DNA from: Clostridia bacterium
GTDB taxonomy: Bacteria > Bacillota > Clostridia > UMGS1883 > UMGS1540
Direction: 5' to 3'
NCBI GenBank assembly: GCA_017620205.1
Contig: JAFZQX010000034.1
Span: forward strand, 1-64,000
Length of the DNA: 64,000 nt
Part shown: positions 1-15,898 of the stretch, one piece after another
How the letters are laid out: each line of letters starts with the position of its first letter
Position numbering within the stretch: position 1 is the first letter of the stretch
Translations under genes and position numbers: made by a program
Notes under the pieces: generated by a model
What the model was told of the DNA's origin: nothing
The model's input: the letters and a program-made list of their open reading frames with translations, nothing else
Databases searched by the model: none

Positions 1-72
1 CCTTTCTGCGTGGTTTTTGGTGGTACTTAAACTTTAACACAAAAAGTTTCTGTTCGCTACTTTTTTAGCCGA

Positions 73-108
73 CATATTTTTATATGAGTTTACTCGTATG
101 AAAATATG
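73..108. repeat. Imperfect palindrome (long hairpin)
   Basis: CATATTTT at 73-80 pairs with AAAATATG at 101-108, and ATATGAG (82-88) pairs with CTCGTAT (93-99) through one G-T pair and one mismatch. This gives a stem of about 15 pairs with a four-base loop. No T-tract follows on either strand, so it is not a typical terminator. Apart from this hairpin I see nothing else in bases 1-170, and no gene. Confidence 0.5.
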
Positions 109-170
109 CCGGAATGTAACACATCTATTGTAAACCTACATTTTTGCCGTTTATCTTATGCCGCTTTGTA

Positions 171-199
171 TTGACATAAATCATAATATATGTTACAAT
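171..199 (+). promoter_or_regulatory. Sigma-A promoter of the peptide-export operon
   Basis: TTGACA (171-176), a 17-base spacer and TACAAT (194-199), with the extended -10 dinucleotide TG at 191-192. Predicted transcription start is near 206, leaving a leader of about 165 bases before the first gene. Confidence 0.75.
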
Positions 200-276
200 A
201 AAAATAGTATAAAATCATATATAAGCAGTATTCAAACACACTGACGGTTCAGGTCAGCGCATTGTTTAAAAAAACC

Positions 277-321
277 GCCGCAGCATGTAGGAATATTTCC
301 ACTTGTTGCGGCTTGTTTTTT
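277..321 (+). terminator. Terminator-like hairpin in the operon leader (possible attenuator)
   Basis: GCCGCAGCA (277-285) pairs with TGTTGCGGC (304-312), with one G-T wobble, and an inner GT/AC extension. TTGTTTTTT follows (313-321). It lies between the promoter at 171-199 and the first gene at 370, so transcripts must read through it. A small CTGAC/GTCAG hairpin at 241-257 precedes it. Either an attenuator or a weak terminator of something upstream; the promoter position favours the first. Confidence 0.55.
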
Positions 322-369
322 CCCTATTTCCGGGTGACCCGTGACCGTAATTTCAGGAGGATATATAAG

Positions 370-1530
370 GTGAAGAAAAAAGTATTTTCTTTATTTTTAG
401 TAATTATATTGGCGTTTTGCACTTCATGCGCAAAGCCCGAGAATAAAACCGTTAAAATAGCTGTTATGGGAGATAAGGACAACTTTTATCCCGACTATTT
501 AAAGGGTATCGAAAAGGCAATAGACGAGTTAAATCAAGAATACGCCGGTAGCGGGTTTACCTTTGAATACACCGTCTGCGATGACAAGGGCAGCTACGAG
601 CTCGGCACGGAGGATATTGCAGAGCTTGACGATGACAAAAGCGTAACCGCCGTTATAGGCGCGGTTGATATGGATATAAACCGTACAGCGGCACATGTTT
701 TCGGTGAAAGCAACCGCCTTTTTATCGTTCCTCACGCCCTTTACGACAGCGTATATGAAAACAATAATTATGAAACCGTTTTGTCGCTCACGGTAACGGC
801 AAAAAAGATGGGACAAACGCTCGGCGCCGCGGCGTCAAACGAAACCGGCGCGAAAAGATGGGCCGTATGCACCGATGACGATGAGTTTTCAATGTCGGAA
901 ATGAGAGGATTTCTGGAAATTGATAAGACAAACGGCATAAAAATTGTTGACTGCTGCGATATTGTAACGCTGATGAGCGATTTTGACAAAGAAATAAACC
1001 GTCTTCAAAACCTCGGCGTTGAAGGTCTTGTTATGTTTCCGGGCGAGACATATTCTTCCGCGGAGCTGCTCTCCCTTGTTCAGAAAATCAGATGGGCGGC
1101 GCCCGGGATGGTTCTCATGGGCGACAGCAGTTTTGACGACAGCGCAACGATGCTTGCCGACCCCTCTCTTATTGAGGCAATGACGGGCTTTATTATTGTA
1201 ATAGAATTTCAAAAACAAAGCGATAACGCGGCGGAGGTCCAAGATGTTAACGAAAGAAGAGAAGCTTTCGCGGCAGAGCATGGCAGTAAATTTGACTATT
1301 GGTATCTGCACGCTTATAACATGACAAAGATGATAGGCGATGCGGCGGCACAAAACAACACTGCGGACGGCGCAGAAATCGCGCGTATTCTGCACAAAAA
1401 CGGATATGACGGTCTTTGCCAGAATTATGTCTTTGACAAAAACGGCTCGCAGCAGGTTTCGGTGATGCAGTATTATATTCTGCAAAGCGACGGCTCGGCA
1501 AGGGAGATAACGATAGACCAAAGGAGATAA
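370..1530 (+). CDS. Type 1 periplasmic-binding-fold lipoprotein
   Basis: A 386-residue lipoprotein. The GTG at 370 is chosen because AGGAGG (355-360) sits nine bases upstream and the product then begins with a lipoprotein signal, VKKKVFSLFLVIILAFCTSC, with lipidation expected at the Cys of FCTSC. The rest (KIAVMGDKDNFYPDYLKGIEKAID onward, with IGAVDMD, IVPHA and GLVMFPGE segments) resembles branched-chain amino-acid/Leu-Ile-Val type binding proteins of ABC importers or receptor domains. No importer permease or ATPase is nearby. It heads an operon of export genes, six bases before the adaptor gene, so it may act as a surface sensor or ligand trap for that system rather than in import. The fold assignment is fairly secure; the ligand is unknown. 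Confidence 0.75.
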   Translation: MKKKVFSLFLVIILAFCTSCAKPENKTVKIAVMGDKDNFYPDYLKGIEKAIDELNQEYAGSGFTFEYTVCDDKGSYELGTEDIAELDDDKSVTAVIGAVDMDINRTAAHVFGESNRLFIVPHALYDSVYENNNYETVLSLTVTAKKMGQTLGAAASNETGAKRWAVCTDDDEFSMSEMRGFLEIDKTNGIKIVDCCDIVTLMSDFDKEINRLQNLGVEGLVMFPGETYSSAELLSLVQKIRWAAPGMVLMGDSSFDDSATMLADPSLIEAMTGFIIVIEFQKQSDNAAEVQDVNERREAFAAEHGSKFDYWYLHAYNMTKMIGDAAAQNNTADGAEIARILHKNGYDGLCQNYVFDKNGSQQVSVMQYYILQSDGSAREITIDQRR

Positions 1531-1536
1531 CGGCAG

Positions 1537-2394
1537 ATGAGTGATTTATTCAGAAAAGAAGCGGTTGAAAACTATACGACAAACAGGGAAGCCACGCTCT
1601 CTGTAAGGGCAATTCCCGTAAGGTGGGTATTATACATAATCATTCTTATTTTATGCGTTACGCTCTTTTGCGTATGGCTTTTCGGCGGAACGGTATATGA
1701 ATCGGAAACGGTCAGGGGTATTGCATGGCCCAATAAAAGCTACGGCGATGTTTACGCCGAAAAAAGCGGCATAGTAGCAAAAACCACCGTATCCGTAGGA
1801 GATACGGTAGAGGCGGGAGATATTCTCGCTTTTATGCCGGACGAAGATATGCTTGGTGTACCGGAAGAAGAAAAAAACTATGAGGCGTATGACAGGGCGT
1901 CCGTAATACGCGCTAAAACAAACGGAATAGTCACATACATAATTGACAGAAACTCATATGTAAACGAGGGCGATTTGATAGCCGCCGTTATATCTTATGA
2001 CAAAAACGGAAATAACGATATTTTAACGGCTTTTGTGCCCGTTGAAAAAAGCTCTCTTATAGGTCTCGGTATGGAGGTTCAGATAATGCCCGATTACGCG
2101 CCGCGCGACAAGTACGGATATATAAGCGGCTTCGTTTCGGCAATTTCTGATTATCCTGTAACAGGAGAGCAGGTATATAATTCAAACAAGCAGCTTTATA
2201 TGTCCGGAATGGATTCTTCGGAAAGCTATATTGAAATTGAGGTTACAATGATGCGCAGCGCCGGTGAGGGAAGCCATCTTAAATGGTCAACCAAAACGGG
2301 GCGCGACATAACGGTAAAGCCCGGAACGCGCTGTGATATGGATATTATTCTCGACAAATACAGACCGTTTGACTGGCTGTTCAGGAGGGCGTAA
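1537..2394 (+). CDS. HlyD-like secretion adaptor of the peptide exporter
   Basis: A 285-residue protein with a short cytoplasmic N-terminus, one membrane segment (about residues 29-50) and a lipoyl-like beta region: YAEKSGIVAKTTVSVGDTVE followed by a second half-motif, AKTNGIVTYIIDRNSYVNEG. This is the paired biotinyl/lipoyl arrangement of HlyD-type membrane-fusion proteins, but it lacks a long coiled coil and is shorter than most. AAAGGAG precedes the ATG. Its last base is the first of the C39 transporter gene. The family is known to link ABC exporters to the cell envelope; here it resembles the NHLM-type bacteriocin secretion protein. The specific NHLM assignment is my inference from gene order. 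Confidence 0.75.
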   Translation: MSDLFRKEAVENYTTNREATLSVRAIPVRWVLYIIILILCVTLFCVWLFGGTVYESETVRGIAWPNKSYGDVYAEKSGIVAKTTVSVGDTVEAGDILAFMPDEDMLGVPEEEKNYEAYDRASVIRAKTNGIVTYIIDRNSYVNEGDLIAAVISYDKNGNNDILTAFVPVEKSSLIGLGMEVQIMPDYAPRDKYGYISGFVSAISDYPVTGEQVYNSNKQLYMSGMDSSESYIEIEVTMMRSAGEGSHLKWSTKTGRDITVKPGTRCDMDIILDKYRPFDWLFRRA

Positions 2395-4541
2395 TGAGCA
2401 AAATTAAAAAAGTACGCCCCATACTTCAAATGGAAACAACCGAATGCGGAGCCGCTTCGCTTGCTATGGTACTCGATTACTACGGCAAAAGCGTAACTCT
2501 TGAAGAGATGCGGCAGGATTGTTCCGTTTCAAGAAACGGCGTAAACGCGAAAAACATAGTGCTTGCGGCGGGGCTCCACGGACTTGAGGCAAACCCCGTA
2601 AGGATTGAGGCCGACGAAGCACAAGAGCTTCAATTGCCCGCAATTATACACTGGAACATGAACCACTTTCTTGTCCTTTGCGGCTTTAGCAAAAAGGGCG
2701 TTGTAATTGCGGATCCCGCAGACGGAAAGCGGACTGTTTCGTATGCGGAATTTTCAAAATCGTTTACAGGGGTTGCGATTGAGTTTGAGCCCTCTGGGGA
2801 ATTTGAGAAAAACGGAAAGCGCCAAAAGAAGAATTACTTTGTTTTAAACACCACAAAACGCTATTTTTCCTCGGTTTTATACATACTCATCACCGAAATC
2901 ATAGTGATGATAAGTGCGGTTTCGGTTTTGTTTTTAAACTCGATATTTATTGACAAAATACTTATCTCGGGCAACACAAAAAACCTCTTAAATATACTGA
3001 GCGTGCTTTTGTTTGCCGGGATTATCTCGGTCATGACGATGATTTTAAATATCGCTATAAAAAAACGCGCCGGACGGCTTTTGAATATTGACATAAACAC
3101 AGGCTTTATAGAGCATATTCTCCGTCTGCCGATTGATTTTTTCAAAAACAGAAACGAGGGTGACCTTGCAAACAGGCAAAACGCGAATATGGATATGGGC
3201 CGGAATCTCGCGGAAACCGTTATGCCCATACCTGCAAGCATTATGCAGATAATAATATACATAGTCCTTGCGCTTTTCTATGATATAAACGTTGCGGTTT
3301 TTGCAGCCATATGTTCCGTTTTAAATATCCTCGTTATGATATTTACTTCAAAGGATTATAACGAGAAAATCATGCCGTATAACCGCGATATGGGTAAAAT
3401 GCAGGGCGAGATTTCAAGCGTTGTCGATAAGATTGAAACAATCAAATCCTGCGGCATAGAGGACGGCATTTTTATGCGCCTTATGTCTATGGGTACGAAA
3501 ATTGCAAACGGAAAAATTCAAATCGATAAAACCGGTTTGCTATACTCCAACCTGTTTTCTTACTTAAATGCGTTTAGCTCTGCGTTTATACTTATAAACG
3601 GTATTATCCGCATTTTCCAGGGATATATGACAACCGGTATGCTTATAGCCGCGCAAGCCGTTGTTGTCGCTTTGATGACGCCTGTCGGCACAACGGTAAA
3701 TTCCGCTATTGCCATTCAGACGCTCCGCGGCGAGGTTCAGAGAACGGACGATGTAATGAACTACCGCCGCGACAATAAGTTTCTTGCTGATAATGACAAA
3801 GCGGAGCAGCGCAGCTCCATAACGGGAGATATCGACCTTGATGGTGTGACATTTTCATATAATCCCCTTGATACGCCCGTAATAAACGATTTTAATCTGC
3901 ATATAAAAAAAGGTCAGCTTATTGCCGTAACGGGCGCGTCCGGCAGCGGCAAATCAACGGTCGCAAAGCTTATAGCGGGTATCTATTCGCCTCAAAACGG
4001 AAAAATCCTCTTTGACGGCATGGAGCTTTCGGAAATAAACCACCTCTATTTCTATTCCAAGGTCGCTATGGTCAGCCAGAACACGCGCCTTTTTGAAGGC
4101 AGTATTACGGATAACATAACAATGTGGGACGAAAGCATAGAATACGAGGATATAACAGCCGCGGCAAAGGCGGCTTGCATTCACGAAGAAATAATATGCA
4201 GGAAAAACGGTTACGCCGAAGCCGTAGCCGAAAACGGCACAAACTTCTCGGGCGGTCAGCGCCAGCGTATCGAGATAGCGCGCGCTCTCGCGAAAAAGCC
4301 CAGAATACTTATACTTGATGAGGCTACAAGCGCACTTGATACAATCACCGAAAGCAAAATTGCAAAAAACATAAAGGCGCTCGGTATAACCTGCGTAATA
4401 GTTGCGCACAGGCTTTCAACCATTGTTGACTGCGATGAGATATTAGTCCTTGAAAACGGCAAAATAAAAGAGCGCGGTACGCACAGCTCGCTTATGGAGC
4501 AAGAAGGTCTTTATTACCGTCTCAGAAGGAGTGACAGCTGA
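2394..4541 (+). CDS. C39 peptidase-containing ABC exporter (double-glycine peptide processing)
   Basis: A 715-residue ABC exporter in three parts. Residues 1-135 are a C39 peptidase with Gln12, catalytic Cys18 (in METTECGAASLAM), His91 and Asp107 all visible. Residues 160-440 form an ABC-type transmembrane domain. The C-terminal ATPase has Walker A GASGSGKST (514-522), signature FSGGQRQR (about 618-625), a Walker B/D-loop in LILDEATSALD and an H-loop in VAHRLST. C39 domains cut peptide leaders after Gly-Gly during export. The obvious substrate is the 51-residue double-glycine peptide at the end of this operon. It starts on the last base of the adaptor gene and its last base overlaps the next transporter, showing tight coupling. 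It resembles the NHLM ABC1 family. Confidence 0.9.
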   Translation: MSKIKKVRPILQMETTECGAASLAMVLDYYGKSVTLEEMRQDCSVSRNGVNAKNIVLAAGLHGLEANPVRIEADEAQELQLPAIIHWNMNHFLVLCGFSKKGVVIADPADGKRTVSYAEFSKSFTGVAIEFEPSGEFEKNGKRQKKNYFVLNTTKRYFSSVLYILITEIIVMISAVSVLFLNSIFIDKILISGNTKNLLNILSVLLFAGIISVMTMILNIAIKKRAGRLLNIDINTGFIEHILRLPIDFFKNRNEGDLANRQNANMDMGRNLAETVMPIPASIMQIIIYIVLALFYDINVAVFAAICSVLNILVMIFTSKDYNEKIMPYNRDMGKMQGEISSVVDKIETIKSCGIEDGIFMRLMSMGTKIANGKIQIDKTGLLYSNLFSYLNAFSSAFILINGIIRIFQGYMTTGMLIAAQAVVVALMTPVGTTVNSAIAIQTLRGEVQRTDDVMNYRRDNKFLADNDKAEQRSSITGDIDLDGVTFSYNPLDTPVINDFNLHIKKGQLIAVTGASGSGKSTVAKLIAGIYSPQNGKILFDGMELSEINHLYFYSKVAMVSQNTRLFEGSITDNITMWDESIEYEDITAAAKAACIHEEIICRKNGYAEAVAENGTNFSGGQRQRIEIARALAKKPRILILDEATSALDTITESKIAKNIKALGITCVIVAHRLSTIVDCDEILVLENGKIKERGTHSSLMEQEGLYYRLRRSDS

Positions 4542-6670
4542 TGGAAAACAAAGATTACCAAAAAGAAATTGAAAAAATCCGTCAGCAGGAAAGAGAGGAA
4601 ACGCTCCGCGCCATAGAAAATCTGGAGTCGGTTTTTTCAGACAAGCACAGCTACGACGGTATAAACGCCGTTTTACACTTTTTCCACGAGAAAATATTAG
4701 TGGATAAAAACCTGCCGCTTTCAAAACAGCTTGAGGAAATTGAAGAGCGCGCCAATATAAAAATGCGCTACATTGAGCTTGAGCACGGTTGGTACAAATC
4801 CGCTGTTATTCCGCTGCTTGTCAACACTCTTGACGGGCGCCATCTCGCGATTATCCCCGATATAAGCGGCCGCTGTTTTTACATAGAAAACGGCAAAAGA
4901 ATAAGAGTTACAAAAGAGAGAGCAAAGTATTTTTCCGACAATGCGCTTTGTTTTTATAAAAGCGCCGGCACCGAAAAAGTAGGCTTTAAAGAATTTGCTT
5001 CGTTTTTCTTAAAGAGCATAACGCTAAAGGACGCTTTAAACCTCATTTTAATATGCGCTCTTGCGACAATAGCGGGGCTTATGTTGCCCTGGGCAAACAG
5101 CTTTATATTTGCGCACGTTGTGCCGTCGGGAAACACAAAGGCGATAATCCCGACAGCATCGCTTTTGTTCTCGGCTATATCCGTAGCGGCTATTATGCGG
5201 CTTTTGCAGTCGTTTATAATAAGCAATACGATGCAGAGAGCCGATACATATATTCAAAGCGGCATTTTTTCAAAGCTGCTTATGCTGAAACCCGAATTTT
5301 TTAAGAAAGTTAAGGCGGGCGAACTGTCACGAATGGTAATAGAGTTTTCCGACCTTTCGAGAATAATATCGGTAGAGAGCATAAGCGCGCTTATCGGAAT
5401 AGTTTTATCGTTTGTTTATCTGTTTCAGATACATTTTTACGCGCCGCAGCTTACCGGATTTGTTATACTCATATCCGTAATTCTTTTGGCAATAATGATA
5501 GCGGCAGGCAGAATAAGCGCCAAATGGATGCGCGAATATTCACGGTCTATGTCGTCCATGGCAGGCTTTTGTTACGAGCTTTTTTCGGGTATTGAGCACA
5601 TAAAGCTCGGCGGTGCGGAAGCGCGCATGATAAAACGCTGGAGCGAGCATTATGCCGAAACGGCGGAGCATGAAGAAAAGCCCGCGATGCTTGAATTTCT
5701 GCCCGTTATATACAAGGTTTTAACCGTTGCGGGAACGTTTTTTATATTCCTTTTGGGTTCAAAACTGGAAGCGTCAAATTATATAGCATTTTCGGCTTCA
5801 TACGGCGCATATATAGCCGCGTTTTTGGGCGCGGGCACAGTTGTTCAGGCTGTATCGCAGTTTCGCTCGTCCTATGAGCTTGTAAAGCCGATACTTACAG
5901 CCGAATGCGAAGACTACGGAAGCGGAAAGAGAAAGATTAAAAAATCAAACGGCGATATTCAAATACTTGATTTAAATTTCCGTTACAGCGAGGATCTCCC
6001 CCTTGTCATAAAACAGCTGTCGCTTGATATAAAAAGCGGCGAGAGCGTAGGCATCATAGGTCCTTCGGGCAGCGGCAAGACAACTCTTATAAGGCTTATA
6101 TTGGGTTTTGAAAGCTATGACGCGGGCTCAATTACCGTAGACGGAATAGATTTACGAGAGCTTGACCTTAAAAGCTACCGCCGTACGGTAGGTATGGTGC
6201 TTCAAAACGACGGCCTTTTAAACGGCGATATATACACAAATATCACAATCGGCAAAATAGACGCGACGGCGGACGAGGTAAACGAAGCCGTAGACAAAGC
6301 GGGACTCCGCGAGGATATTGACGCTTTGCCGATGGGTCTTTACACCCGCATAGGCGCGGAAAACGGAACGCTCTCTGGCGGACAGGTACAAAGAATTTTA
6401 ATTGCCAGAGCGCTTTTAAAAGACCCGTCAATAATTATATTTGATGAAGCGACAAGCGCGCTTGACAATATAACGCAGGCGAAAATAACAAAAACCCTGG
6501 AAGATGCCAAATGCACTAAAATTATAGTAGCGCACAGACTTTCAACAATCAAAAACTGCGATAAAATAGTAGTGCTTGAAGGGGGCAGAATTGTGCAGCA
6601 GGGCACATTTGAAGAGCTTAAAAATGAGGAAGGATTATTTAAAGAACTCATTAAAAAACAAACAATATAA
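4541..6670 (+). CDS. Second ABC exporter subunit with N-terminal extension (NHLM ABC2-like)
   Basis: A 709-residue ABC transporter without a peptidase. Residues 1-160 are a soluble extension, starting with a charged helix and continuing into a mixed region (YKSAVIPLLVNTLDGRHLAI). A transmembrane domain covers about 165-440. The ATPase has GPSGSGKTT, LSGGQVQR, IIFDEATSALD and VAHRLST, all intact. This layout, directly downstream of a C39 transporter, is typical of the second transporter of NHLM-type bacteriocin systems. It probably forms a heterodimer or a parallel exporter with its neighbour. The extension is where a C39-like domain might be expected, but I see no Cys-His pair, so it is unlikely to cleave. 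Its function is inferred from context. Confidence 0.8.
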   Translation: MENKDYQKEIEKIRQQEREETLRAIENLESVFSDKHSYDGINAVLHFFHEKILVDKNLPLSKQLEEIEERANIKMRYIELEHGWYKSAVIPLLVNTLDGRHLAIIPDISGRCFYIENGKRIRVTKERAKYFSDNALCFYKSAGTEKVGFKEFASFFLKSITLKDALNLILICALATIAGLMLPWANSFIFAHVVPSGNTKAIIPTASLLFSAISVAAIMRLLQSFIISNTMQRADTYIQSGIFSKLLMLKPEFFKKVKAGELSRMVIEFSDLSRIISVESISALIGIVLSFVYLFQIHFYAPQLTGFVILISVILLAIMIAAGRISAKWMREYSRSMSSMAGFCYELFSGIEHIKLGGAEARMIKRWSEHYAETAEHEEKPAMLEFLPVIYKVLTVAGTFFIFLLGSKLEASNYIAFSASYGAYIAAFLGAGTVVQAVSQFRSSYELVKPILTAECEDYGSGKRKIKKSNGDIQILDLNFRYSEDLPLVIKQLSLDIKSGESVGIIGPSGSGKTTLIRLILGFESYDAGSITVDGIDLRELDLKSYRRTVGMVLQNDGLLNGDIYTNITIGKIDATADEVNEAVDKAGLREDIDALPMGLYTRIGAENGTLSGGQVQRILIARALLKDPSIIIFDEATSALDNITQAKITKTLEDAKCTKIIVAHRLSTIKNCDKIVVLEGGRIVQQGTFEELKNEEGLFKELIKKQTI

Positions 6671-6685
6671 TTGAGGAGGAAATTT

Positions 6686-9600
6686 ATGAAAAGGACACTG
6701 AAAAAACTGACATCATCATTGCTGATACTTACGTTATTTTTGACGTTTGTACAGCTGCCGGCAATCGCGGAAAAGGGCTTAACCAATCTGCCCGAGGTTG
6801 AAATTGATGAGACAATTCTCCAAAGCGATGTCTTTTATCTCGCGACAACTTCCGCAAAACTGCAGGAAGGCGCAAATGAGAGATACCTTTTGAGAGTTGC
6901 CAGGGGCGGTAACGCCGAGAGCGAGTCGGGTGTAAACATCAAGATTTCCGATGTGACCGCAAAATACGGACGCGACTACACCGTATCCGTATACGGCACG
7001 GATGAAACGGTGCAAAACGCAGAGGACAGACCTTCGCTTATGGAAATGATGGAAGGCGAGGAGTATTCCCAGAGCGAGCTTAAAACCGATGAGGAATTCT
7101 ACGGCATGATGGCGGAAGACCCCGATCTTCAAGCTCAGACCGAAGAAGCTATGCAGGGCGCAATTGATTATATCGAGGATGCGAGTGGTCTGAATGACAC
7201 GGCTCCTGCAGACACACCTAAGGAAGCATCCTCCGATTACGACGAGGTTTCAAGGCTTTATTCGGGTCAGGGCGGTTATCCGCAGAAGCTTTCTTCATCA
7301 ACCGACACCATGCAGCAGATACAGCAGATGGCAAACGTTGTAACGGACGCGGTTATAGGCGCTGACCTTACAATAAACTTTGAAGCGGGCGAAAAAGAGA
7401 AATATCTTGTTATCGACGTTATCGACAACAGCGAAAGCGACGGCGACAGATATTTTTATCTCATGCTCGGCGCGCCTTACGGCACAACGACAAACAGTGC
7501 GGCTTCAAGCTGTGCGGTAACTATCGCTGATGACGAAGAGCATATAAACGCAAAGATAGCCTTTTCGGAGGCTTCCTATACGGCGGACGGCGATAATCTG
7601 CAGATTACCGTAACGCGCGAGGGCGCTATGAATGCTATGGTAGTAGCACACCTTACGTCAGACGCGGGTACGGCAGTTGCGGGACGTGACTTCTCCCCCG
7701 TTGACAAAGAGCTTTCGTTCCCGTTCGGTATAACAAAGCAGACCGTTGATATTCCTATAAGACACGATTATCTTTCGGAGACCGCGACCTTTACGCTGAA
7801 GCTTGAAGGCGTAGAGGGCTGCGAAGCGGGCGAAGATGCAACCGTTACAATAACCCCGGCGGGCGTATCTCTCATGTCTGAAGACGGAGATGACACCGTA
7901 GAACTCATGGCTGAAAAAGCGTATTCCGTAACGGATATTGTGACCGGCAACGGACTTACCGTAAGTTCACCGTCCTTAAATGGAGAGTCGGAATACTTCG
8001 ACGGCGCAAACGGCTGGCGCGACGGAAGTCACTGGGGAATGATGTGGGACGAAAGCAGATGGTTTTATGACCCGACGGGCACGGTTGCCGCATGCTGGAA
8101 CCTCAATAACGGCAGCGGCTATGATACGGCCGGCGTTCAGGTTGACTGGTCAAGAACAGGCTCCTGCGCCAATATGGTACTCGGCTTTGCTACAAATCTC
8201 GACTGGGGTGTTTGGAGCACAACATCGGGAGACAATGCTTACAGCAGTAAAAACAACTTCGGCAGACATACGGAGAATTTCTTTACAAAGTATTCAACTT
8301 CAAAGCGCGTCTGCTTCTACAACCAGGCGGGCTGCGAAGACTGTAACTGGCTTGATATTTACAGCATAAAACCGATTTACAGACCGTTTGAGATAAATCT
8401 TCAGGCAGCCGATTCTCTCCAGTTCCTTAATGAAAACGGAACTAAGAGCACATGGGATGAAGCTACAAAAATGATTTTATCCGGCTCCAACAACCAAAAT
8501 AACAACTATATCGTAAAATATACAAAAGACGGATTGAATGTTGTTTCACTGGTACAGCCCGATACAACTTATACAACTGTTACAGGCGCAAAACTCGTTG
8601 ACGGCGGCTGGACGAAAAATATAAGTCTTTCGGGCAGCGATATAAGCAATACAAAATCATTTAAAATGGACAGAAGCTGGATCGAGAACAATATAGGCTA
8701 TATAAGCTTTAAAACCAATCAGGTAGCAGAATTTTGCAACAGTAATACGAACTACTACGGCCTTAAGGGCGTTATGTATATAAAGCCTACCTTTGCCTAT
8801 AAGGACGCCAAGGTAGTTGTTAAAGTGCCCTCGGGTACTAACTTCGGTTACTTCAAAATAAGCGGACAAGACAAGAATATAACAAGCGACACAGCTTATA
8901 ACTATCACAGAGGCGATATTTTAAAACTCGATACGGTAATGCGTAACGAGTATAAGGATATGTATGAGCCTGCAGGCTACAAGCTCAGTATTAAGCAAAA
9001 CGAGAGCGATACATACTGGATAAGACGTGATGTTATTATCCCTTACGATGATATAAGCGGAAACAGATACGTTGACGAAACCAAGAGATTAAAGTACGGC
9101 TATTATGAAATAACCCCTATCTTCCAGAGAAAAGGCAACGCCATAGCCGTAAGAGTTAAGGCTTCGGATGTTTCAAAGTTTGATCCGAATTACGGATTTA
9201 TGAAAGCGGCTGTTGTAACAGACGTAACAGTCGGCGATGTTTTATACAAGGAATATATCGTTAATGCCAATGTTAAAAACGGTAAAATCTACACGGTCGG
9301 AGCAAAACTCGCATCTTCGGCAGGCGACAAAGCGTACATAAACTGGAAAGAAGCGGGAAGCAGCAAGGTATATGCGGGCGACATGTTCTATCACAGAGCT
9401 ACCGGCAGCAAGGAGGATAATATTATCACGGTGTCGGTAGAAACGGGCGCAAAAGCGAATATGTATGAAACGCTTGAAGGCAATATCATAAGACCTGCAT
9501 ATAATATGCAAAGTCACGATACGAGCGCTCTCAAAAACGCACCCATAAAGGGAGCGATAGTTTCTGTCGGCAGTGATTATGCCGTAACAGACACAAACGG

Positions 9601-12600
9601 TCATTTCCGCACACCTCCCATAAGAGCAATGTACGGCGTGGACAGCAACAAGCGTTATCTCCGTTACGTAATAAGCGTAAACGGCTCGGAGGATCTGCGC
9701 GATATTGAAATAAAATCCGCAAAGACAGAGAAACAGGATATATTTATAACAGCCGGCTCGGGCGCTACGACAACGGTTGATGTTGCAAGACAGAGCGTAG
9801 GCTTCCAGAATATAAGCACGGATAACGGCAGTATAATGGATTATATATCCGTTTACAGAGATAACGAACATAAGGGCGAGGGCACAAGCCTTGTAGTTGA
9901 CTATTCAAAGGCCGAGGAAATCCTGGAGCTTTATGCAAAACTTGATACACCTCCGCAGTACACAAGGCAGTTTTTGAATTCTAAGACGGGCGAGATAACG
10001 GAAGCTGCCGCAACCGAAAATGTTACCGGCGTAACATTTGTTCAGTACGACCCCGATACAAACACTGTAAAGGGCACATTTAAGGCTAAAAAGCTCGATG
10101 ACGGAAGCTTTATGGCACAAATGAGCTCAATGTACCTCAAAGCAGGATATGAGATATACATAAGAGTTGAAACAGACCGCGCACACGGCGTAAGCACCAA
10201 GACGGTAGTTTATAGCGAAGACGGAACTATTACGGAAGTTGAAGGCAAAACAGACGGCACTACCTATGCCGATGTATTTACGGGCTTTGCGGTAGTTCAG
10301 CGCGGCTCTTACGATATTCCTGTCGATCAGACAGTTGCGCTGCCTATGGATATGAACTTCACAACGCTTCCGCTTATCGGCACAACGGGTATAAACTTTG
10401 ACTTCCCGTTTGTAACGGTAGGCGCTATGAAGACAGACGTAGGCTACCGTATGTATCTCGGCTTTAACCCGACCTCACTGTACGATAAAATATCCGAAAA
10501 GCACGCAACACAGTATATGTCGGACAGCGGTAACTACTTCGGCGATTTATTCTCGATAAAGAGCCCGATAAAGACATTTAAAGAAGGTTTGGCACAATCG
10601 TATAACACAGCATTCAAAGGCTGGGAGAATCTCGGCGACAGCGCTTCGGATACAATGGCGGCAATGGGCGCGCCGACATGGAAGATGAGCTTTGTGTTCG
10701 GTGTTTACTTCGACTTTGCTATGGTAACCCTTACCGATCCCCAAAGGGGCACAACAACATCAACGTTTGAATTTGTGGGCGTAGGCGGATTTATCGCTAT
10801 AAACGCAGGCTTTAAAGTAGCGTGGTACACGCTCTTGCCTGTAGTATTTATCCCTGCATATTTCGGCATTGAAATAAACGGCAGCATTATGGGCTTCTTC
10901 GGTGCGGCGGCAGATACATCAAAGCCAAAGATTACTTATAACGACGCAAAGGAAGCGACGGTTGACTTTAACAACAGCCTTGAAAAGTTCCACGCAAATG
11001 TTAAGCTGTCCGCAACCGTTCAGGTATATGTCGGCGTCGGATTGGCGGGAACTATTGGCCTTCGCGGCGGCGGAACATTTACGGCAATGGCAGACTGGGA
11101 TTCAGATCCCAAATATGTACAAAACGAATGGGGCTGCGCACTAATCTTTACCGCAGGTGTTTGGATCGACCTGTTCCTCTTCACCGTGCCGCTGCAGTAC
11201 ACCTTCCCGATGATTAAATTCGGCTCGTTTGAGGAATACGACCAGCTTGCCAAAAACGGCGTTAAGCTCCAGAGCGTTGAAGGCGCTACGGACGAAGGCT
11301 CATCATTTACGGTCCGCGAAGCGTTCTCCGATAAGACTTCCGAATGGCTGCCTGACGGCAATATGCCAACCCTTATGTCGGCGTTTACGCAGTCGTCACA
11401 GCAGACAATAGTTGAAGACGGCTATGAGCATCCCGATGCTAAACTTATAAAACTCTCGGACGGCAGCATATTTATGGCATTTTTGGATAACGACAACTCG
11501 CGCGGCGAAATTGACAGAACGGTTCTGAAATTCGCGGTATACAAAGACGGCATATGGAGCAGCAACTACGTTGTTCAAGACGACACTACGGGCGACTTCC
11601 AGCCGAGTATTTGCGAAATAGACGGCGGACGCGTAATGATATCCTGGATATCAACAGACCCTGCAGAGAGAGCTGAAACCGACGTATCGCAGACAAAAGA
11701 TTACCTCAATAAGCTTGAAGTTTATACGGCAGTTATCGATCCCGCAACCAAGGAAGTAACAGAACTTACACAGCTTACGGACGATAACCGATACGACTAT
11801 AAACCCGCCTGCGTATATGATGACGCTACGGGTGACAGAGTAGTATATTACGCAAAGAACTTTGACAATGACGCAACAACGGAGGAAATGGCAAATCCGT
11901 ACGGCTCAAGCTCGCTTATAACTTACATGCTGTACTCAAGCGAAGACGGCAGATGGCTCTTTGACAAATATTTTGACGAAGAAGTTGCAAGCGAAGAAGA
12001 CAGACAGACGCTTATAGAGAATTGGCACGGACAGCGCTTCATTCTCCCGAGAATGGCGGAGCTCGGTACCGATATGGTACCTAACATAGCAGACTTTACG
12101 GCAATTGCCTATAACGGAATTTCCGTATATGCTTATACTGTTGATGTAGACTCCAACGCGGACACGATAGACGACAGAGAGCTGTTCCTGCAGTTCTATA
12201 ACTTCGACTCGCATAAGACTTTCGTTCCCGTAAGACTTACAAACGACAATCCGCAGGTTGCAGACGCTATGCCGCAGTTCGCGAGATCCGGCAGCGGCGG
12301 GAGCGCATCAACCAAGCTGTTCTGGTACAGAAACAGTCAGAAAATCGCTTACGTTAATATAACCGATCTTGTAAGACACGGCGTTGACAAATACGGACAG
12401 ATAAAACCCGAATACCTTATGACTAAAGACGAAAACGAAGCTGAAAGAGTTCAAAGGAAGCTTTCGGATCTTTACTCATATGTATCGCCCAATTCCGAAC
12501 ATATAAACGATGCCACCGGCATGGCAGACTTTAAACCCGTTGTTGACGGCGATAACATCTATGTAGTATGGACACAGCCCCTGACAAAGGAAGACGGCGA

Positions 12601-14221
12601 GGACGCAAACGGCGAAACTAAGTTTAAGCAGTGCCGCGAGGTTTATGCAACCGCGCTTGTTCATACGGACGCAGGAGAAGAAGTTACGGCTCCGGAAGGC
12701 ACCGATACTCAGCAAACCGCTTCGGACAGCGGCGAAGAGCCGCAGACGGTAAATACCATAGGCACATCCTGGTCATCACCGTACAGACTTACATATAATG
12801 AATTGATTGCAGACGCTCCCACAGCTGTTATCGATTCTGAGGGTAAGCTTATGGTGGCATATAACACATATGAGCAGACTATGCATGAGCAAAACGCTTT
12901 CAGCTCTTCACAGAAAGAGCTTATAACCTTCTCGAATCTGAAGCTCATGGCTTCTTATCAGGAACCCTGCGGCGCGGTTGAGGTTACGGATATAAGTCTT
13001 TCGGACATGACGCCCGTAGACGGCGAAACAGTAACACTTACCATTGATGTAACAAACAAAGGTCTGACGTTTGCAGACGGCTATACCGTAGACGTTTATG
13101 AATATAAAGACGGCGTAAGAGGCAGCAAGATTACAACAATCACAAGCGAAAATAAGCTCCTTCCCGACAACACCGATACACACACGGCTTTGTGGGAAGC
13201 TCCCGCAGACGTAGACGGCATGAGCATATTGGCGGTAGCAAAAGAAGGCGGCTTTGAAAACGAGACGACCTTTGAAAGCGAAAAGCTTGAAAAACACGCG
13301 GTTTACGAGCTTACGGAAGCAAGCGTATATCAGGACGAAAAAGGGAAATTCAGATTTAAAGCGAATATTAAGAATATAGGCAATGCTCCCGCGGCAGAGG
13401 GCGATAAAGTAAAAGTTCATTTCGTAGGGCCTTACGCTATGAACCTTGATTACTCGGTAGAGGAATGTGACCTCGGCTCAATCGAAATCGGCGATCTCGA
13501 TATTTATTCCGAAACCGAAGAAAACGATGTGCTTACGGTTACGGGAGTAAAAGAAATAGGCGGCGAACTCAAAATGCCTATAGAAGCGTTTGAAAAATTC
13601 GGATATATAGACTGCTTCGCAGAGCCCGAAAACGCAGAAGGCACTGCTCTCGGCGAAGGCGCAGATATCAGAGCTGTTATTACAAAACCGGTTGAGGTTA
13701 AATTAAACGGCGAAAAACTGCCCGATGTAATAGAGCTTACCGTAGGCGAAACGTATGATCTTGATGTTTCGGTACTGCCCGGAAAAGTTTCGGAAGACAT
13801 AGATGCAACATTTGCAACGGACGATAGCAGCGTTGCCCTCGTAGATAGGGGCGAGCTTATCGCAAACGCGCCCGGCGAAACAGCGCTTCACGGCATAGTG
13901 AATCCGTACAGCTTAGAACTTATGGATATACTTATTATCGTAAACGCCGATGACGGTATAACCGTTACATACGATACGGACGCGGGCACAGCAAGCATTG
14001 TAAGCTCGAAAGATCTTACTGACGCTTATCTGATAATAGCGGAATACGATACAAACGGCAATTTAGCTTCACTCGAAATTAAAGAAATCACGCTCACGGC
14101 AAACGACACAGAAACCGTCGATTACGATATGAAATCGACCGATAACGACCTTAAAGTAATGATATGGCGCGGCATGGATAACACCGATCCGTATAAAATT
14201 AATTTAAAGAAAGGAGCATAA
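6686..14221 (+). CDS. Giant secreted Calx-beta/CARDB/Big2 multidomain protein
   Basis: A 2511-residue protein. The ATG at 6686 is chosen because GAGGAGG (6673-6679) precedes it and it opens with a Sec signal, MKRTLKKLTSSLLILTLFL, ending near PAIA. Visible parts: a Calx-beta-like region (about 50-290) interrupted by an acidic stretch; a clear Calx-beta domain (287-390, with AGRDFSPVDKELSFPFG); unassigned beta-rich regions; a carboxypeptidase-regulatory-like segment (about 950-1010, GAIVSVGSDYAVTDTNGHF); a glycine- and aromatic-rich segment (about 1230-1530); a propeller-like region with repeated Asp-Gly/Trp motifs (1575-2080); a CARDB-like domain (from about 2098); a Big2-like domain (from about 2345); and a C-terminal domain ending in VMIWRGMDNTDP. 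No LPXTG or SLH anchor is seen. Calx-beta domains usually bind calcium. It sits between the exporters and the peptide gene and may be the system's surface scaffold or receptor; that is inference. Confidence 0.7.
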   Translation: MKRTLKKLTSSLLILTLFLTFVQLPAIAEKGLTNLPEVEIDETILQSDVFYLATTSAKLQEGANERYLLRVARGGNAESESGVNIKISDVTAKYGRDYTVSVYGTDETVQNAEDRPSLMEMMEGEEYSQSELKTDEEFYGMMAEDPDLQAQTEEAMQGAIDYIEDASGLNDTAPADTPKEASSDYDEVSRLYSGQGGYPQKLSSSTDTMQQIQQMANVVTDAVIGADLTINFEAGEKEKYLVIDVIDNSESDGDRYFYLMLGAPYGTTTNSAASSCAVTIADDEEHINAKIAFSEASYTADGDNLQITVTREGAMNAMVVAHLTSDAGTAVAGRDFSPVDKELSFPFGITKQTVDIPIRHDYLSETATFTLKLEGVEGCEAGEDATVTITPAGVSLMSEDGDDTVELMAEKAYSVTDIVTGNGLTVSSPSLNGESEYFDGANGWRDGSHWGMMWDESRWFYDPTGTVAACWNLNNGSGYDTAGVQVDWSRTGSCANMVLGFATNLDWGVWSTTSGDNAYSSKNNFGRHTENFFTKYSTSKRVCFYNQAGCEDCNWLDIYSIKPIYRPFEINLQAADSLQFLNENGTKSTWDEATKMILSGSNNQNNNYIVKYTKDGLNVVSLVQPDTTYTTVTGAKLVDGGWTKNISLSGSDISNTKSFKMDRSWIENNIGYISFKTNQVAEFCNSNTNYYGLKGVMYIKPTFAYKDAKVVVKVPSGTNFGYFKISGQDKNITSDTAYNYHRGDILKLDTVMRNEYKDMYEPAGYKLSIKQNESDTYWIRRDVIIPYDDISGNRYVDETKRLKYGYYEITPIFQRKGNAIAVRVKASDVSKFDPNYGFMKAAVVTDVTVGDVLYKEYIVNANVKNGKIYTVGAKLASSAGDKAYINWKEAGSSKVYAGDMFYHRATGSKEDNIITVSVETGAKANMYETLEGNIIRPAYNMQSHDTSALKNAPIKGAIVSVGSDYAVTDTNGHFRTPPIRAMYGVDSNKRYLRYVISVNGSEDLRDIEIKSAKTEKQDIFITAGSGATTTVDVARQSVGFQNISTDNGSIMDYISVYRDNEHKGEGTSLVVDYSKAEEILELYAKLDTPPQYTRQFLNSKTGEITEAAATENVTGVTFVQYDPDTNTVKGTFKAKKLDDGSFMAQMSSMYLKAGYEIYIRVETDRAHGVSTKTVVYSEDGTITEVEGKTDGTTYADVFTGFAVVQRGSYDIPVDQTVALPMDMNFTTLPLIGTTGINFDFPFVTVGAMKTDVGYRMYLGFNPTSLYDKISEKHATQYMSDSGNYFGDLFSIKSPIKTFKEGLAQSYNTAFKGWENLGDSASDTMAAMGAPTWKMSFVFGVYFDFAMVTLTDPQRGTTTSTFEFVGVGGFIAINAGFKVAWYTLLPVVFIPAYFGIEINGSIMGFFGAAADTSKPKITYNDAKEATVDFNNSLEKFHANVKLSATVQVYVGVGLAGTIGLRGGGTFTAMADWDSDPKYVQNEWGCALIFTAGVWIDLFLFTVPLQYTFPMIKFGSFEEYDQLAKNGVKLQSVEGATDEGSSFTVREAFSDKTSEWLPDGNMPTLMSAFTQSSQQTIVEDGYEHPDAKLIKLSDGSIFMAFLDNDNSRGEIDRTVLKFAVYKDGIWSSNYVVQDDTTGDFQPSICEIDGGRVMISWISTDPAERAETDVSQTKDYLNKLEVYTAVIDPATKEVTELTQLTDDNRYDYKPACVYDDATGDRVVYYAKNFDNDATTEEMANPYGSSSLITYMLYSSEDGRWLFDKYFDEEVASEEDRQTLIENWHGQRFILPRMAELGTDMVPNIADFTAIAYNGISVYAYTVDVDSNADTIDDRELFLQFYNFDSHKTFVPVRLTNDNPQVADAMPQFARSGSGGSASTKLFWYRNSQKIAYVNITDLVRHGVDKYGQIKPEYLMTKDENEAERVQRKLSDLYSYVSPNSEHINDATGMADFKPVVDGDNIYVVWTQPLTKEDGEDANGETKFKQCREVYATALVHTDAGEEVTAPEGTDTQQTASDSGEEPQTVNTIGTSWSSPYRLTYNELIADAPTAVIDSEGKLMVAYNTYEQTMHEQNAFSSSQKELITFSNLKLMASYQEPCGAVEVTDISLSDMTPVDGETVTLTIDVTNKGLTFADGYTVDVYEYKDGVRGSKITTITSENKLLPDNTDTHTALWEAPADVDGMSILAVAKEGGFENETTFESEKLEKHAVYELTEASVYQDEKGKFRFKANIKNIGNAPAAEGDKVKVHFVGPYAMNLDYSVEECDLGSIEIGDLDIYSETEENDVLTVTGVKEIGGELKMPIEAFEKFGYIDCFAEPENAEGTALGEGADIRAVITKPVEVKLNGEKLPDVIELTVGETYDLDVSVLPGKVSEDIDATFATDDSSVALVDRGELIANAPGETALHGIVNPYSLELMDILIIVNADDGITVTYDTDAGTASIVSSKDLTDAYLIIAEYDTNGNLASLEIKEITLTANDTETVDYDMKSTDNDLKVMIWRGMDNTDPYKINLKKGA

Positions 14222-14225
14222 TAAA

Positions 14226-14381
14226 ATGCCAAAAAAAGAAAAGGAAAAAGATACTGAAAAGAAACGCAAATTAAGCCCAGAGGAGCTCGAAAAGGTTAAA
14301 GGCGGCGCTGCAAGTGCCTCCGATCTGCCCCCGACAGTTCCGGAAAATCCTCTCGACCCAAGTATTTACAATAACATTTAA
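14226..14381 (+). CDS. 51-residue double-glycine leader peptide (exported peptide precursor)
   Basis: ATG at 14226, TAA at 14379-14381. The ribosome site AAAGGAG lies inside the end of the giant gene, whose stop is four bases upstream, so translation is coupled. The leader (27 residues) begins MPKKEKEKDTEKKRK and ends LSPEELEKVKGG, the classic pattern of bacteriocin, Nif11/NHLP-type and ComC-type leaders cut by C39 peptidases. The predicted mature peptide is 24 residues, from AASASDLPPTVPENP to its end IYNNI. It has no Cys, Thr/Ser-rich patch, Trp or His, is acidic and proline-rich, and has no obvious thioether or disulfide chemistry. With no LanM, radical SAM or YcaO gene in view it may be an unmodified peptide. 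A bacteriocin, pheromone or structural peptide are all possible. Short, but the leader, ribosome site and C39 exporter agree. Confidence 0.85.
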   Translation: MPKKEKEKDTEKKRKLSPEELEKVKGGAASASDLPPTVPENPLDPSIYNNI

Positions 14382-14390
14382 TGCAAAAAA

Positions 14391-14423
14391 GCCGCGGCAG
14401 GTATTATACTTGCCGCGGCTTTT
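14391..14423 (+). terminator. Rho-independent terminator of the peptide-export operon
   Basis: GCCGCGGCA (14391-14399) pairs with TGCCGCGGC (14411-14419), with an inner GTAT/ATAC pair, followed by TTTT. It lies ten bases after the peptide stop, confirming the peptide as the last gene. Confidence 0.85.
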
Positions 14424-14618
14424 GCGTAAAGAGCAGAATAGTAATATAGCATAAAGAAACGTATCCAATATTATGCAGTATCACGTTTTTTTATCGCGGT
14501 GATTGTATTTCCTGTTATTTTAATATATACTTAAACCATATTTTATAAAGGGGGATTAATACGGGTAAAAGCTTCAGCGCAAAGGTTATGGCGGAAATCC
14601 GCCTGTTTATAAGGTATA

Positions 14619-14647
14619 TTGACAGAGTTGCATCGCTATGATACGAT
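14619..14647 (+). promoter_or_regulatory. Promoter of the lipoprotein pair
   Basis: TTGACA (14619-14624), 17 bases, TACGAT (14642-14647). The expected start is near 14654 with a short leader carrying AAAGGAG. A GGCGG/CCGCC mini-hairpin (about 14590-14603) lies upstream. The rest of 14424-14618 shows no supported gene. Confidence 0.6.
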
Positions 14648-14672
14648 ACAATTATCCTGGAGAAAGGAGAAT

Positions 14673-15233
14673 ATGAAAATGAAAAAAATGATTTCTTTGC
14701 TTTTGTGTGCTATGATGGCGGTAAGTTGCTCCGTTCTTGCTTCCTGCACCTACGGCGACCAAGAAGATGAGGAGTGGTGGCAAAGCGATGCCCGAAGGGA
14801 GGCAGATGAGGAATATGAACGGGACTGGGCTACAAAACCACCCAAGCCGACCGAAAAACCCACCGAGGAACCGTCCTTTATGGAAACGATCTGCGGTACA
14901 TATCTGGTTTCCGGCACCGGTCATTTGACGGGAAATGCGTGGTATGACGAAGACCTCACAACACAAGATAGAACATATACCAACCTTGCCCTGCACGTTT
15001 CACAAGTGGACGAGAATACGGTTGAAATTGATGTAGAGGGAGGTTTACAAGGAAGCGGCACGGTAAGCGCAGAGTCTCCCACCGTCAGCTACACGGGCGT
15101 AGAGGAGGATGGAGACAACTATCAGGTTACCGTAACATTTACCGTCAATGACGGCGGCGCACGTGTGGATTTTAGTTTTCATTCCAGTGATTCCGACAGC
15201 ACGGAAGATATGAAACTAAGCGGTGAAAAGTAA
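14673..15233 (+). CDS. Small lipoprotein, paralogue of the next gene
   Basis: 186 residues. The ATG at 14673 follows AAAGGAG and gives MKMKKMISLLLCAMMAV with a lipobox ending VLASC (Cys about residue 25). A charged linker (DARREADEEYERDWATKPPK, then a TEKPTEEP repeat) leads to a beta-rich C-terminal domain of about 120 residues starting FMETICGTYLVSGTG. This domain recurs in the next gene, sharing METICGTYLVSGTG, LALHVSQ and GSG-VSAESP segments, so the two are tandem duplicates. I do not recognise the family. The pair lies just downstream of the peptide-export operon but has its own promoter. An immunity or surface-binding role is conceivable but has no direct support. Confidence 0.8.
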   Translation: MKMKKMISLLLCAMMAVSCSVLASCTYGDQEDEEWWQSDARREADEEYERDWATKPPKPTEKPTEEPSFMETICGTYLVSGTGHLTGNAWYDEDLTTQDRTYTNLALHVSQVDENTVEIDVEGGLQGSGTVSAESPTVSYTGVEEDGDNYQVTVTFTVNDGGARVDFSFHSSDSDSTEDMKLSGEK

Positions 15234-15268
15234 ACGTTTATAAAAATCACTTTTCAAGGAGGAATATA

Positions 15269-15898
15269 ATGAAAAACAGAATTATAAAGACAGCGCTTAT
15301 CGTGCTTTTGTGTATTTGTACAATACTGTTTCTCACAGGCTGTCCAAGCCATCATGACGAAGTAATATCGGATGCAAGATACGGAAAATTCAAAGAGCTT
15401 ACCGAGGGCGGGATGAGTAAAGAGGACGCCAACAGGTGGCTTGACGAACACACGGAGGAGTGGCATCCCGATGATAAAAAATCTGATTCGGATAAGGCAG
15501 AGGAGACGGAAAAGCCCACCGAAGAACCGGTTGATTTTATGGAAACGATCTGCGGTACATATCTCGTATCGGGAACCGGTGTTTTGACCGGTGGGGCTGT
15601 TTATGATGACGAAGGCCCCGAAACGACTTTTACGAAGCTTGCCTTACATGTTTCGCAAGCGGGCGACAATGCCGTTCAAATCGATGTGGAAGGTGAACAC
15701 GCAGGCAGCGGTGAGGTGAGTGCGGAGTCGCCCTCTGTCACTTACAAGGATTCAATGGGCTATGAGGTTACGGTAACCTTTGCGGTTACGGATGGTGTTG
15801 CACACGCGGATATGAGAATTTTTGGTGATTTATCTATTGAGGACACAGGTGAGCGTTGTACCGAGACAATTACATTAATCGGCGAAAAGGTTGAATAA
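15269..15898 (+). CDS. Small lipoprotein, paralogue of the previous gene
   Basis: 209 residues from the ATG at 15269, preceded by AAGGAGG. Signal MKNRIIKTALIVLLCICTIL ends in lipobox FLTGC. Residues 35-70 (KFKELTEGGMSKEDANRWLD) form a short helical segment not found in the paralogue. A TEKPTEEP linker matches the neighbour, followed by the shared domain FMETICGTYLVSGTG to the C-terminus. There are 35 bases between the genes and no terminator, so they are probably co-transcribed. Function unknown. The differing N-terminal helical segments with a conserved C-terminal domain suggest divergence after a tandem duplication. Confidence 0.8.
   Translation: MKNRIIKTALIVLLCICTILFLTGCPSHHDEVISDARYGKFKELTEGGMSKEDANRWLDEHTEEWHPDDKKSDSDKAEETEKPTEEPVDFMETICGTYLVSGTGVLTGGAVYDDEGPETTFTKLALHVSQAGDNAVQIDVEGEHAGSGEVSAESPSVTYKDSMGYEVTVTFAVTDGVAHADMRIFGDLSIEDTGERCTETITLIGEKVE

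Follow-up and report, generated by a model that had tools for sequence, protein, structure and literature searches.

A double-glycine leader peptide as the probable partner of a giant Sec-secreted protein in Clostridia

Peptides with a double-glycine (GG) leader are usually classed as bacteriocins, pheromones or RiPPs. What such a peptide does when its gene directly follows that of a giant secreted protein is the question raised by the locus described here. The window, the whole stretch of 64,000 nucleotides that was analysed, opens contig C36 in a Clostridia genome of 2.34 Mb. Six closely spaced genes at 370-14381 form one operon and encode, in this order, a lipoprotein, an HlyD-like adaptor, a C39-ABC transporter, a second ABC transporter, a giant protein and the peptide. 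All six were listed, with the same positions and spacing, by a first-pass annotation of this DNA, which had also taken the operon to be bounded by one promoter and one terminator. Strong candidates for both are present. A TG-extended promoter-like site, TTGACA-17-TACAAT (171-199, + strand), agrees by consensus match only, at 11 of 12 bases, and is the best of such sites in 1-15300; an intrinsic terminator hairpin with a T-run (z -6.8) lies at about 14383-14426. The count of one terminator did not hold, however, as a second terminator-like hairpin (z -5.7) occupies about 269-322, between the promoter and the first gene, where it may act as an attenuator or in another form of leader regulation. 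A strong equivalent was not seen upstream in most relatives. Against Rfam nothing reached threshold, and the single chance-level match overlaps the terminator.

The first four genes, all on the + strand, make up the transport part of the operon. The lipoprotein (370-1530, 386 aa) has a GTG start and the lipobox LAFCTSC and is of periplasmic-binding type (Peripla_BP_6, Pfam E 4e-28). It is followed by the HlyD-like adaptor (1537-2394, 285 aa), whose best NCBIfam match is TIGR03794 (NHLM HlyD; 98.6 bits, cut-off 156), by the C39-peptidase ABC transporter (PCAT, or ABC1; 2394-4541, 715 aa; PF03412 E 2e-36; TIGR03796 774 bits, cut-off 853), and by ABC2, which has no peptidase (4541-6670, 709 aa; TIGR03797 558 bits, cut-off 709). 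With all three scores under these cut-offs, ABC1, ABC2 and HlyD are homologous to the NHLM/NHLP exporters and lie outside the curated families. The C39 domain is fused to the ABC transporter, with catalytic motifs Q..ECGA, HFLV and DP..G intact in 22 homologues, and close relatives of the PCAT are found in three MAGs (L034, L035 and L036), one of them from water-buffalo reticulum.

The order lipoprotein-HlyD-ABC1-ABC2 is kept as a cassette in about 20 genomes. The locus had been called self-contained, which is true of the window, where everything lies in one operon, but not of all its relatives: in at least five genomes (G062, G130, G424, G047 and G202) the exporter is found away from the giant and the peptide, on another contig or at a distant site. 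The system thus consists of two modules, the exporter on the one hand and the giant with its peptide on the other. In G062 (L036 14456-19297) the cassette is followed by an unrelated secreted protein of 1613 residues, and the giant and the peptide are on another contig. Exporter and peptide nevertheless occur together, since within family f12 a PCAT is present in all 18 peptide-bearing genomes and in 2 of the 23 peptide-less genomes examined (Fisher 9e-10), the PCATs of these two having N-termini visibly of other classes. The peptide is present without a PCAT in G461 and G141, whose genomes are 81% and 84% complete, respectively.

The giant (6686-14221, + strand) has 2511 residues from its ATG; a TTG at 6671 would give 2516. 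It comprises a signal peptide, Calx-beta repeats, a long-strand beta region, a sialidase-like propeller and a weak CARDB match. Its C-terminal end is an unnamed domain at the place where relatives have three SLH repeats. These repeats, present in a relative of 76% identity, are missing from the window's giant (13900-14221), and the terminal domain of about 85 residues recurs at the ends of other secreted proteins in these bacteria. With the SLH repeats missing and another domain at the end, wall attachment of the window's giant is uncertain. Ahead of the propeller, residues of about 1335-1530 (window 10600-11300) have no Pfam match and are predicted to form several very long beta strands of some 20 residues. 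The propeller itself (11423-12715, + strand; residues 1585-2015 in TTG numbering), which is the candidate peptide-binding domain, was predicted with AlphaFold2 as an isolated unit at pLDDT 85 and pTM 0.85; a larger stretch of the giant, 1145-2040, gave a middling pLDDT of 67. Foldseek matched the model to propellers of sialidase-like type at 10-12% identity, with a best E of 1.6e-11 and a TM of at most about 0.5, and a sequence search of the same region against solved structures returned nothing significant.

The peptide gene (14226-14381, + strand) has 51 codons and is preceded by an AAAGGAG ribosome-binding site located within the last codons of the giant. Its product, MPKKEKEKDTEKKRKLSPEELEKVKGG (leader) followed by AASASDLPPTVPENPLDPSIYNNI (core), consists of a 27-residue leader and a 24-residue core. 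The leader LSPEELEKVKGG carries V-4, L-7 and L-12, and in LahT the leader residues at these positions dock in the C39 groove (PMC6363468). Hydrophobic residues at -4, -7 and -12 and a GG(A/S) motif are common to 29 of 29 peptides. Leaders of the NHase or Nif11 type were not detected, the peptide having no NCBIfam or Pfam match of either type.

The small gene is not a chance open reading frame: more than 20 genomes have it next to a homologous giant, with a Shine-Dalgarno sequence, a canonical leader and a constrained core. The Shine-Dalgarno-like sequence is found upstream of 28 of the 28 peptide genes inspected, and the GG gene stands immediately 3′ of the giant in G060, G357, G219 and G384. 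Homologous operons lacking such a gene, or a leader that varies while the rest is kept, had been named as points against the system; what was found is the GG-leader gene at the same place in homologous operons, in more than 20 genomes with homologous giants, and a conserved leader. A peptide profile blind to gene neighbours was also run over 391 Clostridia, 70 genomes of family f12 and 38 of family f18. Among the 391 Clostridia, every strong match (E < 1e-5) falls in a giant-bearing genome, and in the two families 24 of 25 matches adjoin a giant homologue, within one gene. One of the peptides, known through the profile alone (G130, contig C63), lies 3′ of a 2688-residue giant, and the exporter is on another contig. 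The odd match, in G424 (contig C27; L304 about 4756-4842), is a type A remnant without an intact start, and the stretch fetched around it holds no giant.

Between related pairs, pN/pS is 0.15 for the core and 0.37 for the leader, from which the core is under strong purifying selection. It is the more constrained half of the precursor, unlike the core of a peptide engaged in an arms race. Of the two main types, type A cores follow the pattern [AG]FDxVPRVPExxIDxxLxxKI, of which the window's AASASDLPPTVPENPLDPSIYNNI is a divergent member, and type B cores follow SIxxVxYTxTxxISxDTxxKI; a third type, GDPFAxIPRVPExxIDxELRKDG, comes from a paralogous type of cluster. The 29 cores measure 20-25 residues, have a net charge near zero and end with Ile in 23 cases. 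The absence of Cys from the window's core, remarked upon in the first-pass annotation, extends to all 29, and none of them contains Trp.

The main new evidence for a partnership comes from co-variation, assessed by Mantel tests on distances among cores, leaders, giants and transporters (n=26 peptides). The core correlates with the giant when ABC1 is controlled for (r 0.72, p 0.001) and little with ABC1 when the giant is controlled for (r 0.18, p 0.07). For the leader the result is opposite, with r 0.57 (p 0.001) for ABC1 given the giant and r 0.12 (p 0.13) for the giant given ABC1. Both the core-giant and the leader-ABC1 correlations persist when the lipoprotein is added and also with one peptide per genome, in which case leader-giant rises to 0.25 (p 0.045). 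Core types change once on the giant tree; on the ABC1 tree they change seven times, against a mean of 7.1 for shuffled labels. Individual pairs illustrate the same behaviour: G357 and G437 have ABC1s that are 72% identical, giants that are 23% identical and different core types, whereas G357 and G202 have ABC1s only 41% identical, related giants and type A cores in both. At the level of sequence distances, this is a double dissociation inside one small gene, the leader co-varying with the transporter and the core with the giant. Physical linkage alone could in principle co-inherit core and giant, but linkage between neighbours cannot by itself make the leader and core halves of a single 50-codon gene behave in opposite ways. 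The residual signals of the core with the lipoprotein (r 0.26, p 0.04, given the giant) and with ABC1 (p 0.05-0.07, given the giant) leave room for a weaker third partner. Taken with the co-occurrence of the PCAT, the behaviour of the leader supports the earlier assignment of GG peptide export to an NHLM-like ABC1/ABC2/HlyD set, and the conserved pairing and the behaviour of the core do the same for the idea of the peptide as partner of the giant.

Where on the giant a partner peptide might be accommodated can be approached through residue conservation. The columns invariant in peptide-linked giants fall mostly within residues 1590-2010, and it is residues 1590-1830 of the giant that correlate best with the core. 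In the propeller, the five residues D1709, Y1726, N1815, R1872 and T1881 (TTG numbering) reach 96-100% conservation among 24 giants linked to a peptide and 25-33% among 12 that lack one, the latter being spread over several separate clades. The comparison lends modest support to the view that giants without the peptide have repeatedly lost propeller residues that are invariant in the peptide-linked ones. Six strict columns were matched by 4 of 300 label permutations, which ignore ancestry, and the enrichment of strict columns in the propeller over the rest of the giant is not significant (Fisher 0.30). We hypothesize that the propeller is the peptide-binding site, and it may be speculated that R1872 pairs with the conserved C-terminal carboxylate of the core. 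Two other ideas were rejected. A domain unique to peptide-linked giants was not found, the architecture being common to both groups and only single residues differing. The second idea, that part of the giant imitates the core, was prompted by similar N-terminal segments; for 10 of 11 pairs the core aligned no better than its shuffled versions, and G062 gave the one weak case (6 of 100 shuffles).

GG peptides beside surface proteins are not confined to this type of operon. On contig C32 of the same genome (L003 1858-19864), a paralogous cluster encodes ABC1, ABC2, a sigma factor, a subtilase and a GG peptide (core GDPFAGHARVSTKKIDSSVREKG), the last just upstream of a 3424-residue giant with an SLH-like C-terminus. 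Similar clusters occur in L305 and L076, and L056 also has GG peptides adjoining a giant. In G202 (L259 2159-12999), another PCAT pair stands by an SLH protein, a GG peptide (core TNSFDADQQLASLKPRPPKPSPDMKFE) and an RCC1-repeat protein, so that the peptide-surface protein theme may extend to other surface proteins. In G376 (L164 8066-9177), a GG-leader gene containing Cys separates a PCAT pair from a giant that belongs to the same family.

The reading that we favour, at a probability of roughly 0.6, is that the product of the small gene is a peptide that stays unmodified and acts as the giant's partner; the PCAT would export it, and it would bind the giant outside the cell, likely on the propeller. 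Export and partnership are well supported, and by analogy with known exporters we infer the export of this particular peptide. The leader would dock on the C39 domain of the PCAT through V-4, L-7 and L-12, cleavage by C39 would occur behind Gly-Gly, and the ABC1/ABC2/HlyD/lipoprotein cassette would release the 24-residue core. The giant would leave through Sec; in relatives, SLH repeats or an LPXTG-like tail would fix it to the cell wall. Once exported, the core would bind the giant, most probably at the sialidase-like propeller, and the bound core could be a ligand or a subunit required for the fold, the assembly or the activity of the giant; direct binding, its site and what it achieves are the steps that we infer. 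Peptides of 20-25 residues make poor Sec substrates and receive exact ends from a PCAT, which may explain why this one is not encoded inside the giant. The whole suggests a peptide made to bind and serve the giant, and not to kill or to signal.

Four other explanations have to be weighed, each of them less likely than a peptide partner. An unmodified class II-type bacteriocin, the giant being a cotranscribed adhesin with no relation to it, would have the layout usual for that class, a PCAT and a GG leader without a maturase, and the NHLM-like exporter families carry names drawn from bacteriocin export. Such a product is nevertheless improbable given a core of 20-25 residues that is roughly neutral and devoid of Cys and Trp, strongly conserved (pN/pS 0.15) and tied to the giant, and given neighbourhoods in which no conserved immunity gene or other small neighbour was seen. 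About equally improbable is a RiPP whose core is modified before export by an unlinked enzyme. The resemblance of the transporter set to NHLM exporters used for RiPPs speaks for it, and Asp, Glu, Ser, Thr and Lys in the cores are possible targets of some enzymes. The first-pass annotation had seen no maturase, and the wider comparison agrees, for none is conserved in the neighbourhoods, all cores lack Cys, and the LanC-like and YcaO families, the two classes searched, are absent from 21 peptide-bearing genomes.

A pheromone, received by the binding-protein-like lipoprotein or by a sensor elsewhere, is somewhat less remote but still unlikely. In streptococci, GG peptides often serve as pheromones (PMC7018657); the lipoprotein is a conserved member of the exporter cassette, and the weak residual correlation between core and lipoprotein (r 0.26, p 0.04) points the same way. 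Yet neither a histidine kinase nor a regulator recurs next to the gene in about 20 neighbourhoods, the lipoprotein follows the transporter (r 0.95) while the core follows the giant, and the core is common to different genera instead of being split into strain types. The signalling to the giant evoked by the first-pass annotation, if read as pheromone action, is not supported by these observations. In the least probable alternative, a secreted subtilase processes the giant and the peptide serves this enzyme as substrate, inhibitor or activator. A subtilase gene (L156 15960-17375) does overlap the orthologous operon of G060 at its start, the enzyme is present in the related paralogous type (contig C32 of the same genome, G418 and L076), and an SLH-subtilase precedes the PCAT in G376; however, a scan of other lipoprotein-type loci yielded no homologue, and none lies between the promoter and the first gene of the window's operon.

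To return to the peptide as partner of the giant, a bolder version is advanced tentatively, as a possibility that we hold at somewhat less than even odds. It would be a two-route assembly, in which a Sec-exported giant and an obligate, unmodified, PCAT-exported peptide cofactor meet outside the cell, the peptide being seated in the propeller and completing or switching the giant. If true, it would give GG peptides a role other than killing, signalling or natural-product export. Should the giant have the core as its dedicated ligand, many small PCAT cargoes of gut Clostridia would have been misread as antimicrobials, and bacteria would be able to complete a Sec-exported protein with a short peptide whose ends are exact. 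The pairing, the few candidate residues in the propeller and the two core types make the idea directly testable.

In the openly accessible literature, no counterpart was found for a GG peptide as conserved partner of a giant Sec-exported surface protein, nor for GG peptides with SLH/Calx-beta proteins. Among fibrillar adhesins, we know of none with a dedicated exported peptide partner. The giants recall these adhesins, long surface proteins in which many domains, stalk-like beta domains among them, are combined with wall anchors (PMC8286594), although attachment is uncertain for the window's giant. The NHLM/NHLP cassette (Haft 2010, PMC2887384) shares with the present operon the three transport families as best matches, the gene types and GG cleavage; here, the scores fall under the curated cut-offs, a lipoprotein is added, the NHase/Nif11 leader and the maturase are missing, and the partner is a giant surface protein. 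PCATs acting on GG peptides, such as LahT (PMC6363468) and ComAB/BlpAB/RtgAB (PMC7018657), have in common with it the hydrophobic leader positions -4/-7/-12 and the C39-ABC fusion. Their known cargoes are RiPPs, bacteriocins and pheromones, whereas here a conserved core is tied to a giant that leaves by Sec. MAM of Faecalibacterium prausnitzii, in the parts of its description available to us (PMC8836110), is likewise a proposed PCAT-exported GG product of a gut Clostridium and not a bacteriocin, and its PCAT gene is sometimes unlinked, as here; it is a protein and not a 24-residue peptide, and those parts describe no giant partner. The mode of export is already known, and there is a real chance that the role of the peptide is categorically new.
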